The notes under the pieces were generated by a model. That model did no database searches. It was given only the letters and a program-made list of their open reading frames with translations, and had not been told where the DNA came from. From Prochlorococcus marinus str. MIT 9215 (lineage in GTDB: Bacteria; Cyanobacteriota; Cyanobacteriia; PCC-6307; Cyanobiaceae), in NCBI RefSeq assembly GCF_000018065.1, contig NC_009840.1, positions 372,001 to 436,000 on the forward strand: a stretch of 64,000 nt of DNA. The letters run 5' to 3'. Position numbers and translations under genes: made by a program. Below, piece after piece: positions 3,306 through 61,547 of the stretch (positions within the stretch are counted from its first letter, which is position 1; every line of letters starts with the position of its first letter).

Positions 3306-3318
3306 ACCTTTGAAACAG

Positions 3319-3498
3319 AAAAGTGGATCCTAAAACTGACGTCTAATTCTGAATAATTTCTTTGTGCGATAGTGGTATTTCACTGATACCAGCCTATCCC
3401 GCGAGTGCCCTCGTCGGGACTTGAACCCGAGACCTCTCCCTTACCAAGGGAGTGCTCTAACGCTGAGCTAAAGGGCAATTTTAAAGTGGCCGGGTTGG
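3319..3498. repeat. Left tRNA-derived direct repeat (attachment-site side)
   Basis: Left copy of the boundary repeat. It matches 35006-35188 from AAAAGTGGA through the tRNA-Thr sequence and on to GCCGGGTTGG, which is the 3' end of tRNA-Tyr with one G missing. Beyond that point the two copies share nothing. The match is imperfect, with several substitutions and short indels, so this is an old or diverged copy and not a fresh duplication. The true crossover site is probably a shorter core within the tRNA. Confidence 0.8.
3406..3476 (-). pseudogene. tRNA-Thr(GGU) remnant
   Basis: This 71-nt copy of the tRNA-Thr at 35094-35165 keeps the anticodon arm (loop TTGGTAA, anticodon GGT), the T arm and the 3' acceptor strand. 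It has lost the seventh acceptor-stem base (GCCCTT-TAGCTC against GCCCTTGTAGCTC), and the D-loop GG pair has become GT. Both changes should harm folding. It is best read as the att-associated duplicate left by integration, with the functional gene at the right end. Confidence 0.8.
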
Positions 3499-3624: not shown

Positions 3625-6600
3625 TTAGAAATTCCAATTTATCTGGAATTGATAGGAATCTGAATTTTTTGAATCTCCCTGTTCATTTTTGTAAGAAAGC
3701 ACAGCTCCGAATCTATTTTTCCTACTCATCTGCAATCCAATGGTGTTGCTGAGGAAATTATCCGATGAGTTCAAAATTGAAAATCTGTAGTTGGTGGTGC
3801 TGTCATCTACATAATGAAGATCCACAATTGAATCATCTGTGAAGTCGAAATTATATTCAATCTTTGCGAAAGGTTTTATTTTCCATTCCTTAATCTCAAA
3901 TTCGCTGAATAAATCTGATCCAAGGGCCAAAATTCTATGGTTGACTGTCTGTTCTTTGAAAGTCAAGGCAAGATGACTGCCTGATTCAGAAAATGGTTTT
4001 AATGATATATGAGAAGCTTCAATCCGTGCGTAGGGATTAAAAGTGATGTTTCCCTTGTAAATCGGGTCGGGTCTGAAAGAAAGAGATCCAAAGATAAGAT
4101 TGGCATCTCTCTGGCCTTTGTGGGCAATTGAGTCTTCAAATCTGGTTGTATAGAAATCCATTTTTCCAATTCCCAACTGAAAATCTGTGGGCAAAAAGCT
4201 TTTGAATTTCTGAGAGGAATAAATAGAAACACTGTAGTTATCTGAATTTAACTTGCTTCCTTGCGAGCCGATTTTTATATGATCGTTACCATAAGTAAAA
4301 GCGAAGCCAAGCAGAGAATTGTTTTTTAGTTTTTTGTCCGCACCAAAAGTTAAGTTAAGTGCATCTGATTTCTGATTTGATGACGTTGAATTTTTTTTAT
4401 AATCACCAACAACTATCTCTCCATCAGTCCATAAAAACCAGTTTCCAAATAATTTTCCACCTTTTGGATTTAAATCAGGATCAAATGTTTTTTCGCGTAA
4501 TTCTGCAAAAGCAATTTCTACTGAACTATTTCTGAGATCATCGATTATTTGGTCCGATTCATTTTTCAGCCTTTCATCATTCCAGTTTGCTCTGGCCCAA
4601 TTTTCAAAATCTTTACTTTCTATATCTTTAAATTTTTTCCCCGATCCATTAAAAACTTTCTCTAATGTTGGATTTGAGAAAGAAAAATTAATGCCTTGAA
4701 ATGATTTTTTATCAGATCTTTTATTTCTGGCAAGCCATTCTAGTCTTCTATTCACAGCATCTAAACCGGCCTTGCTGAATCGTATTGATGCGTCTGTCCA
4801 GGCTTCTGCCAGTCCCAGTACATCAGGTTTCAAAGTTGGATCACCCTTTGAATCTATAGGAATATGATTATTTATCACACCATTTGATGTGGTGGATGAA
4901 ACGCCTGTGAAAGTAAAGTTAAAATTCAAATGATAGGTTGTGAGTTCTCCGGAATCTGGAGCATCTTCCTGTATTTGAATGGTTTGTGCTCCACCGCCAA
5001 GATCGGGAGTGAAAATGCCATTTTCCGAGATAATCTTTGTGCTTTCAAAACCATATCCTTTGGGCGGATCCACAGTAATTGAGTAGTTACCACTTTGTGC
5101 GACATCTCCTTTCAGAACAAAATTATATTTGCCATCTGAACCCGTCTCATGGACATTGTTTCCACCACTGTCATCCAGCCAGTCGTTATTTACGAGACTT
5201 CCTTCATAAAGTAATTTAACTGTTACTCCGGATACCGGTTGTCTTGTAGAGGATTCGTATATCACTCCTGCAGGGTCAATTAAAAGGCCATCTATATCGC
5301 TAATTTCTTCACATGAAGAACTGATCTGGATATTTTTGATAAATCTTCCTGATGAAACTGGTCCATCGGTTAAATCAACTTTACCTTTACCTCTCTTCCC
5401 AGCTAATTTTATAAATTCAACTTTAAAGGTCCCAGCGCTGTTAGGGAAAAAATTATAGTTACCCACACTATTGGTTGTAGTAGTTGTGATTAGAGAATCA
5501 TCCTTATAAAGTTTTACAGTTGAACCGTTAACTGGATCACCATTTTTGTATCTGACAACTCCTGATATCGATCCGCAGGAAGCACTTTTGGTAGTGAAAT
5601 TATAAGTATTTTTTGAATCAATTCCAGCAAAAGAATTAGGAGAAGCCGCTTCATCCACTACTGCTCCTGTTGAAATTAAAATATAATATTGAGTACCATC
5701 ATTTATCAAAACTGATCCGTCAGAATCTCTTAATGAAATTGACATTTCATTCCCGGATACGGAGATATCAGTAGTGTTGCTCATATTGAATGATCTTATT
5801 AATGCATCAGTTGAATAGTTGTATAGAGAAATATTTCCTGAACCACGAACTACGTTTTCACTGAAAATTATTTCTACTGTTGGATCAGATGTAGAAACAT
5901 CAGTAGCATTATCCTCTGGAGATTGGGAAGTTATAACTGGAGCGACTGAGTCATTGCTGTAAGTTGAAAAATTCAGTTCAGTTTTATCTGTAATGCCTTT
6001 GTAGCTAATGCCATTTGAAGATTCAATTATTTTGGGTTCGATAAGAAGATAATAATCTGTGTTTGCAATAAGTTCTGCTGGTAAAGTAATAACTTTGCCT
6101 GAAATATTCAATGAATCATTGCTGTACTGCTTGACTAAAGTGTCGTCAGATTTATGCAGAGTAATATTTCCACTTGTTTCCGATGCTTTTATATCTTTGT
6201 CAAAGGTCAATGTGAGATTAAGACTTGTATTTACCCCAAAAGAATTATCTGATGGATTGGTGGAAGTTAAATTTGGACCACTTGGACATCCATTAAAACC
6301 CCAGCATGGTTGTTTATTGCTAGATAATATTGGAGCGAACAAAATTGGTGTCTGGGCATAGTGTTCAACATTCCATGAGGTTAGATTCTGATCGAAATCC
6401 TTGGCATTTTTAAAGGTCCTTGTAAAATTTGTGACCTCTGCCACATCCCAATTACTAATATCTTTATTAAATGCTCTCGCTCCATCAAAAGTTCTCCTCA
6501 ATGACCTTAAACTTTCAGTGTTCCAGCTTGAAATGTTTCCATTAAATGTCTTTGCTCCTGCGAATGTTCTGTGCATGCTCACAACTTTCGATACATCCCA

Positions 6601-7233
6601 GCTGTTTAAATCACTATTGAAATTAATAGCCTTTAAAAAAGTTCTGTCTAATCTAGTTACGTTACTTACATCCCAGCTATTTAGATTTTGATTAAATGCT
6701 GCTGCTCCCCTGAAGGTGCTGTTAAGCCTTGTAACTTTGGAAATATTCCAACTACTAATATCTTGATTAAATACCAAGCTATCCTGGAACATTCCATTGA
6801 TATTAGTGACATTATTTAATTCCCAGTTCGAAATATCCTGGTTAAAGCTGGATGCGTTCATAAACATCCTGCTCATGGTTGTAGCTCTACTTGTATTCCA
6901 ATAACCTATATCTGCATTAAAGTTGGTTTGATCCTTAAAGAGACTTGAAAAATTCTTAATTTGACCAGTGAAAATTTTATTGCCGGTGTCCCCAAAATTG
7001 TATGTAATCCCATTTTTAGTTATTTGAAAATCTGATCCAACAGCACCATTTGCTATGCCTTCATCAAGTAAATCTCTATCAACGATTAGCATATTTGCGC
7101 AAACTGTTCCGAATGCACCAACTGTGCCTACATATTGATTTGAGTAGCAATTTGAATCATCAGCTTTAGCTGAATTCAAGGGATAAAATAATGAAATTAA
7201 GAATAAATATTTATATAGATTTTGTTTCTTCAC
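3625..7233 (-). CDS. Autotransporter-like surface protein with DUF285 repeats
   Basis: A 1202-aa predicted outer-membrane or secreted protein. It has a clear signal peptide (residues 1-24, ending NSAKA). Residues about 95-300 are roughly eight 25-residue DUF285/BspA-type repeats of the form F-N-x-D-I-S-x-W-D-V-S-x-V-T. Two Big_5-like Ig modules follow (about 315-425 and 430-550), then two carboxypeptidase-regulatory/SdrD-B-like modules (about 555-620 and 660-760). The C-terminal 270 residues alternate like a beta-barrel and end in NWNF, a terminal aromatic typical of autotransporter barrels. The likely role is surface display in adhesion or grazer/phage interaction; that is inference. It sits immediately inside the left attachment repeat. 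Confidence 0.8.
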   Translation of the reverse strand: MKKQNLYKYLFLISLFYPLNSAKADDSNCYSNQYVGTVGAFGTVCANMLIVDRDLLDEGIANGAVGSDFQITKNGITYNFGDTGNKIFTGQIKNFSSLFKDQTNFNADIGYWNTSRATTMSRMFMNASSFNQDISNWELNNVTNINGMFQDSLVFNQDISSWNISKVTRLNSTFRGAAAFNQNLNSWDVSNVTRLDRTFLKAINFNSDLNSWDVSKVVSMHRTFAGAKTFNGNISSWNTESLRSLRRTFDGARAFNKDISNWDVAEVTNFTRTFKNAKDFDQNLTSWNVEHYAQTPILFAPILSSNKQPCWGFNGCPSGPNLTSTNPSDNSFGVNTSLNLTLTFDKDIKASETSGNITLHKSDDTLVKQYSNDSLNISGKVITLPAELIANTDYYLLIEPKIIESSNGISYKGITDKTELNFSTYSNDSVAPVITSQSPEDNATDVSTSDPTVEIIFSENVVRGSGNISLYNYSTDALIRSFNMSNTTDISVSGNEMSISLRDSDGSVLINDGTQYYILISTGAVVDEAASPNSFAGIDSKNTYNFTTKSASCGSISGVVRYKNGDPVNGSTVKLYKDDSLITTTTTNSVGNYNFFPNSAGTFKVEFIKLAGKRGKGKVDLTDGPVSSGRFIKNIQISSSCEEISDIDGLLIDPAGVIYESSTRQPVSGVTVKLLYEGSLVNNDWLDDSGGNNVHETGSDGKYNFVLKGDVAQSGNYSITVDPPKGYGFESTKIISENGIFTPDLGGGAQTIQIQEDAPDSGELTTYHLNFNFTFTGVSSTTSNGVINNHIPIDSKGDPTLKPDVLGLAEAWTDASIRFSKAGLDAVNRRLEWLARNKRSDKKSFQGINFSFSNPTLEKVFNGSGKKFKDIESKDFENWARANWNDERLKNESDQIIDDLRNSSVEIAFAELREKTFDPDLNPKGGKLFGNWFLWTDGEIVVGDYKKNSTSSNQKSDALNLTFGADKKLKNNSLLGFAFTYGNDHIKIGSQGSKLNSDNYSVSIYSSQKFKSFLPTDFQLGIGKMDFYTTRFEDSIAHKGQRDANLIFGSLSFRPDPIYKGNITFNPYARIEASHISLKPFSESGSHLALTFKEQTVNHRILALGSDLFSEFEIKEWKIKPFAKIEYNFDFTDDSIVDLHYVDDSTTNYRFSILNSSDNFLSNTIGLQMSRKNRFGAVLSYKNEQGDSKNSDSYQFQINWNF

Positions 7234-7407
7234 CTTTGTTTTGATTATTAATTAAATTTTTAGCTTCTGAAAATCTTTTTTATATTAACAACCAATTTTC
7301 TTAAATCCATGATTAATTTCTTTTTGCCCTCTTAAAGGTTGATTTTTTATTCATGATTAGTTTTCCCACTTTTGCAGATGATATTACTGCTATGGGATAA
7401 TTTTATT

Positions 7408-7422
7408 GATTGACAGTCGATC
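7408..7422. promoter_or_regulatory. 15-bp dyad, leader copy 1
   Basis: GATTGACAGTCGATC is a near-perfect inverted repeat (6 of 7 pairs about a central A) located 30 bp before the ATG at 7453. The same dyad precedes the next gene at 7711. It looks like a protein-binding operator. It contains TTGACA, but no good -10 lies 16-18 bp downstream. Confidence 0.45.
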
Positions 7423-7429
7423 TAAATTA

Positions 7430-7452
7430 AGAGGGATAAAACCCTCTTTTTT
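7430..7452 (+). terminator. Terminator-like hairpin ending at the start codon of the 84-aa gene
   Basis: AGAGGG (7430-7435) pairs with CCCTCT (7442-7447) across a six-base loop, and a T-run leads straight into the ATG at 7453. The shape is that of an intrinsic terminator placed directly before a start codon. It could attenuate transcription into the gene, or terminate a short upstream transcript. Confidence 0.55.
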
Positions 7453-7707
7453 ATGTCACCCAATAAAGGCCCAAAGGTCATCAAATACTGTGTAATTACA
7501 TCTACAACTGCGATAGTTCTAATTTTTATCTCCTTGATACCTATTTCAATAAAGGCATTTTATTGGAATCAATGCTTTAAGAAAACATTTAAATGGATTG
7601 ATAAATACGAGATGGAACTAAAAAATTGGGATAAAGCATCAAAAGAAAGTATTGCAGTAGCAGTTTGCAATGGTGCTGTGTACGAACCTGAACTTAAAAC
7701 AAAGTAA
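7453..7707 (+). CDS. Small membrane protein (84 aa)
   Basis: No family recognised. Residues about 10-36 form one hydrophobic segment (VITSTTAIVLIFISLIPISI), followed by a charged soluble tail with two cysteines, so it is likely a single-pass inner-membrane protein. Small proteins of this kind are common in Prochlorococcus islands. Its ATG abuts a hairpin and T-run, and the downstream DUF3764 gene has the same leader arrangement. Confidence 0.6.
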   Translation: MSPNKGPKVIKYCVITSTTAIVLIFISLIPISIKAFYWNQCFKKTFKWIDKYEMELKNWDKASKESIAVAVCNGAVYEPELKTK

Positions 7708-7710
7708 TTC

Positions 7711-7725
7711 GATTGACAGTCAATC
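7711..7725. promoter_or_regulatory. 15-bp perfect dyad, leader copy 2
   Basis: GATTGACAGTCAATC is a perfect 7-bp inverted repeat around one base. It starts 4 bp after the stop codon of the 84-aa gene and ends 29 bp before the DUF3764 ATG. It matches the dyad at 7408, and an 11-bp portion recurs at 11257-11267. Confidence 0.5.
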
Positions 7726-7732
7726 TACAATA

Positions 7733-7754
7733 AGGGGCAATTAGCTCCTTTTTT
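7733..7754 (+). terminator. Hairpin plus T-run between the 84-aa gene and DUF3764 gene
   Basis: AGGGGC (7733-7738) pairs with GCTCCT (7744-7749), with one G-T pair, and is followed by a T-run that ends at the ATG at 7755. It may end the upstream transcript and at the same time restrict read-through into the DUF3764 gene. Confidence 0.5.
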
Positions 7755-8039
7755 ATGTCAATTGAAACAACTGTTTTAGATTTCAAGTTAAGTAATACAT
7801 TTGAGGAATATGAGGCGTATATGAATGCACCTGAACAACAAGCCATGTTTAAAGAGATGGGAATAAAAACTTTTTATATTGGGAAATCATTAGAAAACCC
7901 CCAAAGAGCAACCGTTATGTTTCAAGGACCAGTAAATACTTGTTACGACATCTTTGTTAACCCGGAAACTAAACCAATAGTTGAAGCGTCCGGTCATATT
8001 TATGAAGGGACAATAATAAACCGCTGGATTTCTGATTAA
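7755..8039 (+). CDS. DUF3764 family protein
   Basis: A 94-aa protein that resembles the picocyanobacterial DUF3764 family: an opening beta strand (TTVLDFKLSNTFEEYEAY), a helix around EQQAMFKEMGIKTFYIGKS, then PQRATVMFQG. The layout suggests a small ferredoxin-like (dimeric alpha/beta barrel) fold; its function is unknown. There is no signal peptide. It heads a close run of small genes: the next frame starts 3 bp after its stop and the following two are joined by ATGA overlaps, so they are probably co-transcribed. Confidence 0.7.
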   Translation: MSIETTVLDFKLSNTFEEYEAYMNAPEQQAMFKEMGIKTFYIGKSLENPQRATVMFQGPVNTCYDIFVNPETKPIVEASGHIYEGTIINRWISD

Positions 8040-8041
8040 TT

Positions 8042-8359
8042 TTGAAACGCCTTCTACTTCCACTGCTGGTTGCATTGGCATTACCTAATGCTGTTAATTC
8101 CAATGAAAAAGTTTCATCTGAAATGAGTGATATTGAAACTAATAAAATATTGCTTGGTCAAGTTCTTTCTGTCTGCTATGCAGTAGATCGAAACCACATA
8201 ACCATGAAACAAAAAATAGATATGCTGGGATTTGCTCTAAACCTCCATGAACGAGCTCATGGAAATAAACAAACAATACAAGAAGATCAAATGAATGCTG
8301 TTGGGAAAGTCCTGGATATCTTTCCAGATTGCTTCCCTGAAGTAAAAAAAGATAAATGA
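8042..8359 (+). CDS. Small secreted protein (105 aa)
   Basis: Starts at TTG 8042, three bases after the DUF3764 stop. Residues 1-20 form a signal peptide (KRLLLPLLVALALPNAVNS). The mature part is helical with two cysteines (SVCYAV and PDCFPE), which could form a disulphide in the periplasm. I recognise no family. Its stop overlaps the next ATG (ATGA), which indicates translational coupling. Confidence 0.6.
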   Translation: MKRLLLPLLVALALPNAVNSNEKVSSEMSDIETNKILLGQVLSVCYAVDRNHITMKQKIDMLGFALNLHERAHGNKQTIQEDQMNAVGKVLDIFPDCFPEVKKDK

Positions 8360-11256: not shown

Positions 11257-11267
11257 TGACTGTCAAT
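11257..11267. promoter_or_regulatory. Partial third copy of the leader dyad
   Basis: TGACTGTCAAT matches 11 of the 15 positions of the dyad at 7711 (as its reverse complement) and is followed by CCCTCT, also seen in the leader at 7430-7447. It lies 17 bp before an ATG at 11285. The significance is modest because the match is partial and the downstream frame is uncertain. Confidence 0.3.
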
Positions 11268-33987: not shown

Positions 33988-34953
33988 TTATATGGAAAGT
34001 TGAAAGTGGCTGTAGCGCATCAGCATTTTTATATCTCTGTGACCGCTGCATGCACTTATCTCTAGTGCATTCATTCCGCATCTCCACATTCTGCTTATGG
34101 CTATATGTCTTAGATCATGAAATCTGAGAGTTTCAAGTCCGGCTTTTTTTCTTGCCTTATCAAATCCATGCCTCGCGCTACCTTTTGATAGTTCTATAAC
34201 TTTCCCATCTCTTCTCTGTAATTCCTCAAGAATCTTCTGCGCCTCTTCAGGGAGAGGAACAAGCCTGAGTGCAGATGAATTATCTGTGGCGGCACAATTC
34301 TTTCTATATATATAGAGTAATTTTTTTTTCAGATCTATATTTCTCCAGGTCAGGCTCAATAGTTCGGAGCGGGGGAAGCCAGTAGTGAGGGCAAGCTTTG
34401 TGAGTCTCAGATGATTTTTATTGGACAGCTGAGACAATTCATATAAAAGTTTTTTCTCATCTTGGTCAGTGAAAAATGGAGCTCTAGCATCTCCAGTTCC
34501 TCTCACTCTCAGATGCCTTGCTGGGTTGTTTTTGATTTCAGCTCCTCTTTCATCTCTTGCCCAGTCGATCAGTACTCTCAATATCCTCAGTTCCCTCATC
34601 ACTGTATTTGGTTTCACCTTCATTAATCGTTTGTCTCGCCAGACTGCGAAATGTTTTATCTGCAGATCATTCAGAGGAATATCTCCAAGCCAGCTTTCTG
34701 CCATCACCCTGAGAGGATATTTTTCATTCTCCGCACTGCGGTGCAGCAGAAGAGGACCATTTATATAGTCATTGATTGCCTCTCCCAGGGTGACAGGGAT
34801 GACATTTAAAACCTTTTTTGTTCTCTCTTCGACTGCATCTGCCCATGATTGGGCCAGATCTCTGGAAAGAAAAGTTCTGGACCTTGGGCCGACATAATTC
34901 TTCCTTCTGATAAGGACCTGCCAGCCGCTTCCGCTTCTTCTGATTGTTGCCAT
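33988..34953 (-). CDS. Tyrosine recombinase (integrase)
   Basis: I prefer the ATG at 34953 (321 aa) to the GTG at 34980 (330 aa). Counting from the GTG, the catalytic set is complete: R204 (GFPRSELLSL), H288-x-x-R291 (FHDLRH), H314 (SGHRD) and the nucleophile Y323 (MRYSHF). The N-terminal SAM-like core-binding domain covers about 62-150. It presumably catalyses site-specific insertion of the element at tRNA-Thr, whose gene lies 140 bp away. Its composition is GC-rich like the minus-strand defence genes, suggesting they arrived together. Confidence 0.92.
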   Translation of the reverse strand: MATIRRSGSGWQVLIRRKNYVGPRSRTFLSRDLAQSWADAVEERTKKVLNVIPVTLGEAINDYINGPLLLHRSAENEKYPLRVMAESWLGDIPLNDLQIKHFAVWRDKRLMKVKPNTVMRELRILRVLIDWARDERGAEIKNNPARHLRVRGTGDARAPFFTDQDEKKLLYELSQLSNKNHLRLTKLALTTGFPRSELLSLTWRNIDLKKKLLYIYRKNCAATDNSSALRLVPLPEEAQKILEELQRRDGKVIELSKGSARHGFDKARKKAGLETLRFHDLRHIAISRMWRCGMNALEISACSGHRDIKMLMRYSHFQLSI

Positions 34954-35005
34954 TTCGGTGTCATCGTTTGTGTGATGCACCTCCAGATATCTTCTTTAAA
35001 AACAC

Positions 35006-35175
<170 letters not shown>

Positions 35176-35188
<13 letters not shown>

Positions 35189-61292: not shown

Positions 61293-61313
61293 GTTTCGAT
61301 TTGACAACACGGC

Positions 61314-61366
61314 CATCCCCCGTTCCATGGTATGACTCGAACTGCGCCCTCCAATGAGGGTGAACG
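61314..61366 (-). promoter_or_regulatory. Glutamine-II riboswitch-like leader (Downstream-peptide motif)
   Basis: On the minus strand CGTTC closes with GAACG; between them lies the hairpin CCCTC-ATTG-GAGGG, then GCGCAGTTCGAGTCATACCA. A G-rich GGGGGATGG follows, available for pseudoknotting near the translation start. This organisation matches the Downstream-peptide glutamine riboswitch known from picocyanobacteria, which precedes short peptides. The assignment is by memory of the motif; no covariance model was run. Confidence 0.7.
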
Positions 61367-61547
61367 AAAAAGTAGCGATTGCTACAGAATTATTATAAGC
61401 GTATTTTTAACTGCATGTCTAGCTTTTACAAATAGAAACGAAGATTTAATGTTTTTTTAATTATTATCTTAGGTAAATTTTTTTATAAATAGTCTCTAAA
61501 AAGGATTATGTTTATATTTGGTTTAATCTTCATGTAACTATTTATTT

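Follow-up and report, generated by a model that had tools for sequence, protein, structure and literature searches.

Background

Prochlorococcus outnumbers every other photosynthetic organism in the ocean. Most of the differences between its strains lie in genomic islands, where single small genes are swapped in and out. The closest described parallel for such exchange is the integron, which comprises an IntI integrase, an attI entry site with direct repeats, and attC sites with the core motifs GTTRRRY and RYYYAAC. Within the genus, tycheposons were reportedly described by Hackl and colleagues in 2023 as tRNA-flanked islands that carry divergent tyrosine recombinases and move larger cargo at tRNA genes. 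Coleman and colleagues are said to have described in 2006 a 48-bp repeat of Prochlorococcus islands, PRE1, reportedly without a cassette role. The att site of P-SS2 is tRNA-like and 53 bp long, and five 36-bp copies of it occur in an island of Prochlorococcus MIT9313; it is described as a phage attachment site linked to IS activity (PMC2784084). This site belongs to another strain, and its likeness to the element reported here is one of description.

The window analyzed here is a 64,000-nucleotide stretch (372001-436000) of the 1.74-Mb genome of Prochlorococcus marinus MIT 9215, in which two consecutive genes carry leaders of the same general form. We consider it likely, at roughly 70%, that these leaders belong to an integron-like system in which cassettes are joined, gained, and lost at a 16-bp core, probably with the help of recombinases.

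Paired Leaders and a Genus-Wide Core

A sequence-only reading of the window had pointed to a dyad, a terminator-like hairpin, and a T-run extending to the ATG before both genes, and all of these are present at 7408 as well as at 7711 (Table 1). Both leaders have the form GATTGACAGTC(G/A)ATC, followed by a 7-bp hairpin and a T-run to the ATG. The first hairpin has a loop of 6 and a predicted energy of -9.8 kcal/mol (z -2.4), with T's reaching the ATG at 7453; the second has a loop of 5 and -9.1 kcal/mol (z -3.1), with T's reaching the ATG at 7755. A terminator scan of 7200-8100 returned three sites, two of them the leader hairpins, compared to 0.2 (sd 0.5) in shuffled sequence.

Table 1. Features of the paired leaders, their cassettes, and the surrounding island, with two related features elsewhere in the genome (positions are those of the window unless stated).
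Feature	Position	Strand	Remarks
Left core ATTGACAGTCGATCTA, putative recombination junction of the 84-aa cassette	7409-7424	+	dyad of the sequence-only reading, GATTGACAGTCGATC, at 7408-7422 (pattern scan of the window)
TAnnnT box TAAATT, possible -10 element	7423-7428	+	T at +18 conserved
Terminator-like hairpin at the head of the 84-aa cassette, with T's up to the ATG	7429-7448	+
84-aa ORF, cassette cargo	7453-7707	+	no Pfam match
Right core ATTGACAGTCAATCTA, before the DUF3764 cassette	7712-7727	+	one change; second dyad, GATTGACAGTCAATC, at 7711-7725 (same scan)
TAnnnT box TACAAT, possible -10 element	7726-7731	+
Terminator-like hairpin of the DUF3764 cassette head	7732-7750	+
DUF3764 protein, cargo of the next cassette	7755-8039	+	PF12594, 1.1e-31
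Whole cassette of the 84-aa gene, 303 bp core to core	7410-7712	+	L087 and L259 have these flanks without the cassette
Integrated island with cassettes	3313-35188		31.9 kb; bounded by 189-bp repeats (3313-3498 and 35000-35188) that include tRNA-Thr, 92.6% identical
330-aa tyrosine recombinase beside tRNA-Thr	33988-34980	-	PF00589, 6.7e-21
415-aa recombinase	own genome 1098751-1100013		stop abuts a core
tRNA-Asn with one-mismatch anticodon arm	L010 527-599; own genome near 130050

At up to three mismatches the 15-mer is not rare in the window (seven matches versus 3.2; 5 of 100 shuffles reach seven). Across the whole genome, at up to two mismatches, it occurs 14 times forward and nine times in reverse, versus two and none for a reversed control pattern. 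We took the two exact copies as the signal, rather than the loose window matches, and this genome-wide excess over the control agrees. A partial dyad that had also been noted at 11257 does exist, on the minus strand, and shares only the 10-bp ATTGACAGTC with the core; inspected by eye, it has neither the remaining core nor a hairpin, and we rejected it as a copy of the element. One further match relating to it was picked after the fact and carries no weight. At gathering score, Rfam assigned the element to no family in the window, where its only matches were three tRNAs and a Glutamine-II riboswitch.

Among 310 instances, numbered with 0 at the first T of TTGACAG, the core ATTGACAGTCGATCTA hardly varies between -1 and +14. 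Downstream of it come a T at +18 (95%), an arm rich in purines, one rich in pyrimidines, and T's. The 15-mer TTGACAGTCGATCTA, at up to one mismatch, was found in all 101 same-genus genomes, that of MIT 9215 included and many of them incomplete, at 1-21 copies each, while the reversed control matched twice in total across the same set. The cultured strains MIT 9201 (L276) and MIT 9302 (L188) are among those with cores. As a 16-mer, the core is present in 19 of 19 genomes of the genus versus 2 of 231 genomes elsewhere in the family, with one match in each of those two. The core is a genus-wide element, practically absent from sister genera. The exact 15-mer was also searched for in a named collection, where 113 of the 119 stretches listed are Prochlorococcus or Synechococcaceae records; the remaining six come from unrelated bacteria and presumably match by chance. 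The same pattern appeared at DUF3764 loci, of which we examined 30: at up to two mismatches, three of the four in the own genus carry the core, and none of the 26 in other genera do.

Contigs filed as viral held 34 exact core sites in 33 stretches. Four of these sites resemble real elements by eye (one each in L135 and L154, two in L151), and we rejected the others as elements since their flanks are unrelated. The cassette heads in these three IMG/VR contigs could represent host islands or phage-borne cassettes.

As to where the core came from, the reverse complement of a tRNA-Asn anticodon arm differs by one base from the 15-base GATTGACAGTCGATC. Tyrosine recombinases often use tRNA anticodon arms, and on this account we propose that the core may derive from such a site.

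Exchange of Single Genes at the Core

In 253 pairs of instances that share their upstream but not their downstream sequence, identity held up to the core and fell to background right after +14. In 359 pairs of the opposite kind, identity stayed at background until the core and then rose, hairpin included; therefore, the hairpin travels with the downstream gene. Partners were also widely shuffled. Among 370 unique instances, 30 of the 32 upstream families with at least three members had at least two downstream partners, and all 34 downstream families of that size had at least two upstream partners. The 84-aa gene (family D7) occurs in eight instances with eight different upstream contexts, and DUF3764 (family D0) in 37 unique instances with 16. 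These are counts of places rather than of events, some instances coming from related strains.

Reading frames respect the same border. Of 352 cores, 51% are followed 15-70 nt later by the start of an ORF of at least 60 aa, versus 19% of random places, and 119 of these 179 ORFs begin at 42-44 nt. On the other side, 41% of cores have an ORF of this length ending in the 60 nt before them, versus 7% of random places, and in 71 of 141 upstream families TGA or TAA directly adjoins the core. Judged by these alignments, the conserved 16-bp core behaves as a DNA recombination junction. The crossover base cannot be placed within it, as the rare core variants are common to neither side.

Whole cassettes can be followed from genome to genome. 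The cassette of the 84-aa gene is present in seven genomes (the window, L101, L194, L209, L211, L213, and L272) at 302-306 bp, in seven left and five right contexts. L087 and L259 have a single core, and no 84-aa gene, between the flanks that surround it in the window. L087 is identical to the window over 93.8% of the left 400 bp and 94.2% of the right side, and L259 over 96.8% and 91.2% (right spans of 396-399 bp). Of 20 candidate filled loci, compared in 50 pairs, eight (16 pairs) had an empty counterpart that matched both flanks over 300 bp or more, right up to the core. Identities approach 99% for L220 and L281 against L232, L256, and L274, and for L267 against L215 and L246. At the other 12 loci, which had looked like matches because of family labels alone, the flank match was insufficient on at least one side, as it was in 34 of the 50 pairs. 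Where two cores are neighbors within 3 kb, they share a strand in 144 cases and differ in eight, or 133 versus eight once repeated places are removed. These comparisons show cassettes to be core-to-core units, exchanged at the core, and the twin leaders are best read as the two borders of one mobile, one-gene cassette.

Such a pattern could also arise without a dedicated enzyme. Slippage or homologous recombination between short direct repeats, here the 16-bp core and similar heads, could delete and shuffle genes; direct repeats stand at both cassette ends, and deletion between them would yield exactly the filled and empty pairs observed. We nonetheless consider this explanation unlikely. It accounts better for loss than for gain, and it sits poorly with a single 303-bp cassette in seven left contexts, with arrays that are unidirectional at 133:8, and with a hairpin that accompanies the downstream gene instead of being split at random.

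Signals in the Cassette Head

Taking one representative of each of 118 cassette-head families, we found the hairpin in 58%, versus 6% of simple shuffles. A TAnnnT box occupies +13 to +18, with the T at +18 present in 111 of the 118. In Prochlorococcus, the TANNNT box is the usual -10 element, and the box may be the -10 of the cassette, a view that we hold more weakly than that of recombinase action. If so, transcription would start inside the hairpin, and the mRNA of the gene itself would therefore lack the full hairpin.

This conservation could also be taken to mean that TTGACAG...TAnnnT is a shared, regulated promoter or operator spread by promoter capture, the shuffling of genes being incidental. 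The TAnnnT box is indeed conserved beyond the core, and ORFs start at a fixed distance from it. However, whole cassettes move with both of their borders, and the core is commonly where the upstream ORF terminates, something not required of a promoter. We therefore regard the promoter explanation as quite improbable.

The sequence-only reading had instead suggested a shared attenuator, that is, a terminator before the ATG that a dyad-binding factor would relieve. Much of what it described holds: the hairpins and T-runs are real, the starts of long ORFs are mostly fixed relative to the core, and the dyad-hairpin-ATG arrangement, which that reading would have abandoned had it not recurred elsewhere, is shared and recurs widely. 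Its regulatory claim fared worse. A relieved terminator can hardly be a general rule because only 58% of head families have the hairpin. The dyad marks a recombination junction, and the position of TAnnnT suggests a transcription start within the hairpin. An attenuator run by a dyad-binding factor is not supported by these results; we judge it very improbable as a shared device, though individual cassettes may be attenuated, and it is not needed to explain the leaders. As part of a mobile cassette, the hairpin may still act as a terminator, a role that would be common but not universal.

Tyrosine Recombinases Beside the Core

In the loci fetched by the core, a sampling that is biased by this choice, eleven tyrosine-recombinase ORFs end 4-15 bp before a core. 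We then used as query the 421-aa frame of a protein of the own genome, chosen since its gene ends at a core, and found relatives in 64 of 151 genomes of the genus. A core lies within 9 bp after the recombinase stop in 13 of 30 loci found in this way and overlaps the stop in one more, L322, which gives 14 of 30, or 13 of 29 without the locus of the query itself, L315; the remaining 16 have no core at the stop. For other long ORFs in these loci, a core stood at the stop in 1 of 19. Eight of the 13 core-abutting recombinases are of one 468-aa subfamily, and all eight loci have a tRNA-Pro gene. Since ORFs generally tend to end before cores (41% versus 7%), a recombinase gene at a core may also be cargo. 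The two recombinases that Pfam identified in the own genome have no adjoining core.

The candidates are divergent members of their superfamily. In an alignment of six, five of whose genes end at a core, R255, R361, H384, and Y393, the last being the catalytic Tyr, are kept, with Y358 standing where H is usual. PHROGs labeled three of five recombinases "integrase," while the own-genome type has no family match in Pfam, NCBIfam, or PHROGs. A profile of the six (A1) reached XerC-like, XerD, Tn1549 Int, and IntI4 chains, at 9.4e-07 for an archaeal XerC-like protein and 0.0087 for IntI4. The XerA/integron-integrase model of NCBIfam matched two of five recombinases, far under its cut-off. For a structural model of the own-genome type, of modest confidence (pLDDT 65), the best Foldseek matches were Tn1549 Int and Cre, at low TM-scores of about 0.3-0.4.

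Some cores are preceded by further repeats that are suggestive of recombinase binding. Direct repeats with a period of 11 bp precede 22 of 382 cores, while periods of 9, 10, 12, and 13 give four, one, one, and one. They comprise several unrelated sequences; two such sites have tRNA-Pro about 95 bp away (L120 and L272), and one, in L114, is close to where a recombinase gene begins. We infer that these repeats could be arm-type binding sites, which they resemble. By eye, 11-bp-period repeats together with apparent tRNA remains also precede recombinase genes without a core at the stop in L318, L340, and L341.

Another tyrosine recombinase, of 389 aa (L285, 1426-2595), has frames of near-equal length in most of 87 genomes of the genus, by a rough count. 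We considered it as the acting enzyme, but none of the five loci checked has an adjoining core. Beside it in L285 is what we take to be a cobalamin adenosyltransferase gene.

Lastly, a REP/MITE or IS200-IS605-like dispersed hairpin element would likewise be short, partly palindromic, dispersed, and often accompanied by a hairpin, but is extremely improbable given that the moving units take in entire genes between two cores, all in one orientation, and that the enzyme linked to them, in a search directed at recombinases, belongs to the tyrosine recombinases.

Comparison With Integrons and Tycheposons

Taken as an integron-like system, a cassette would read, in order, core, TAnnnT box, hairpin (in many), T-run, ATG, ORF, and stop, followed by the next core. 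Exchange would be catalyzed by the divergent tyrosine recombinases of the islands, several of them encoded right up to a core, and the cores preceded by 11-bp-period repeats are candidates for full recombinase binding sites. On a more tentative footing, the hairpin would terminate the preceding cassette in a read-through transcript, the TAnnnT box would serve as the start signal of the following one, and each cassette might then be an insulated expression unit. If true, an insulated, one-gene, plug-in cassette would work wherever it is inserted.

Several features are shared with integrons. Both have small one-gene cassettes in one orientation (here 133 versus 8) and exact gain or loss of single cassettes that leaves one site behind (here at 8 of 20 loci and in 16 of 50 pairs). 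Both also carry many small proteins without known function. Less clear-cut likenesses are the distant similarity of the recombinase to IntI4 and the direct repeats before some sites, which recall those of attI and would be candidates for an entry point. In contrast, the attC motif GTTRRRY is missing, and the ATTGACAGTCGATCTA consensus has no GTT on either strand. Site and hairpin together span about 48 bp and head the ORF rather than trailing it, the cassettes may each bring their own promoter, and there are several recombinase subfamilies versus one IntI. Because the defining attC motif is not there, we did not file this system as an integron. It is possible, though we would put it at somewhat worse than even odds, that Prochlorococcus has a cassette system of its own that evolved apart from integrons, with a core shaped like the tRNA-Asn arm, island recombinases, and a 48-bp head serving as site, promoter, and terminator. 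If so, the integron strategy might have arisen twice.

With tycheposons, the island in the window shares integration at a tRNA gene, flanking tRNA repeats, and an adjoining tyrosine recombinase. The two differ in that larger cargo is moved at tRNA genes there, whereas here a one-gene cassette is exchanged at a 16-bp core away from tRNA ends. The element is probably PRE1, which it fits in length, genus, and genome clustering, and the repeat as such may be known already. We found no mention of the element in passages of PMC2518516, PMC2784084, PMC7522525, and PMC12416821. The literature searched likewise gave no account of the cassette behavior, with Coleman 2006 and Hackl 2023 lying outside that search, and an earlier description may exist.

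An exact, enzyme-like junction in every sampled genome of the genus makes for a testable mechanism. The core also provides a handle for listing the mobile gene pool, with its many small families (DUF3764, DUF3804, DUF1330).

The Host Island

The island that holds the two cassettes looks like an integrated, tRNA-targeting element. Neither its 330-aa recombinase nor the relatives of this protein in 12 other loci have a core alongside. The island also encodes, on the minus strand (3625-7233), a protein of 1202 aa that combines DUF285 repeats with Big_5 and an autotransporter beta-domain. Elsewhere in the window, the Glutamine-II riboswitch lies at 61312-61369, also on the minus strand. In one upstream family, U0 (e.g., L117 and L218), cassettes end in the truncated start of a signal-peptide gene, ATGAAACGCTTACTACTTGCACCGCTATATTAA..., before the core; such ends occur in 38 unique instances with 29 downstream partners.
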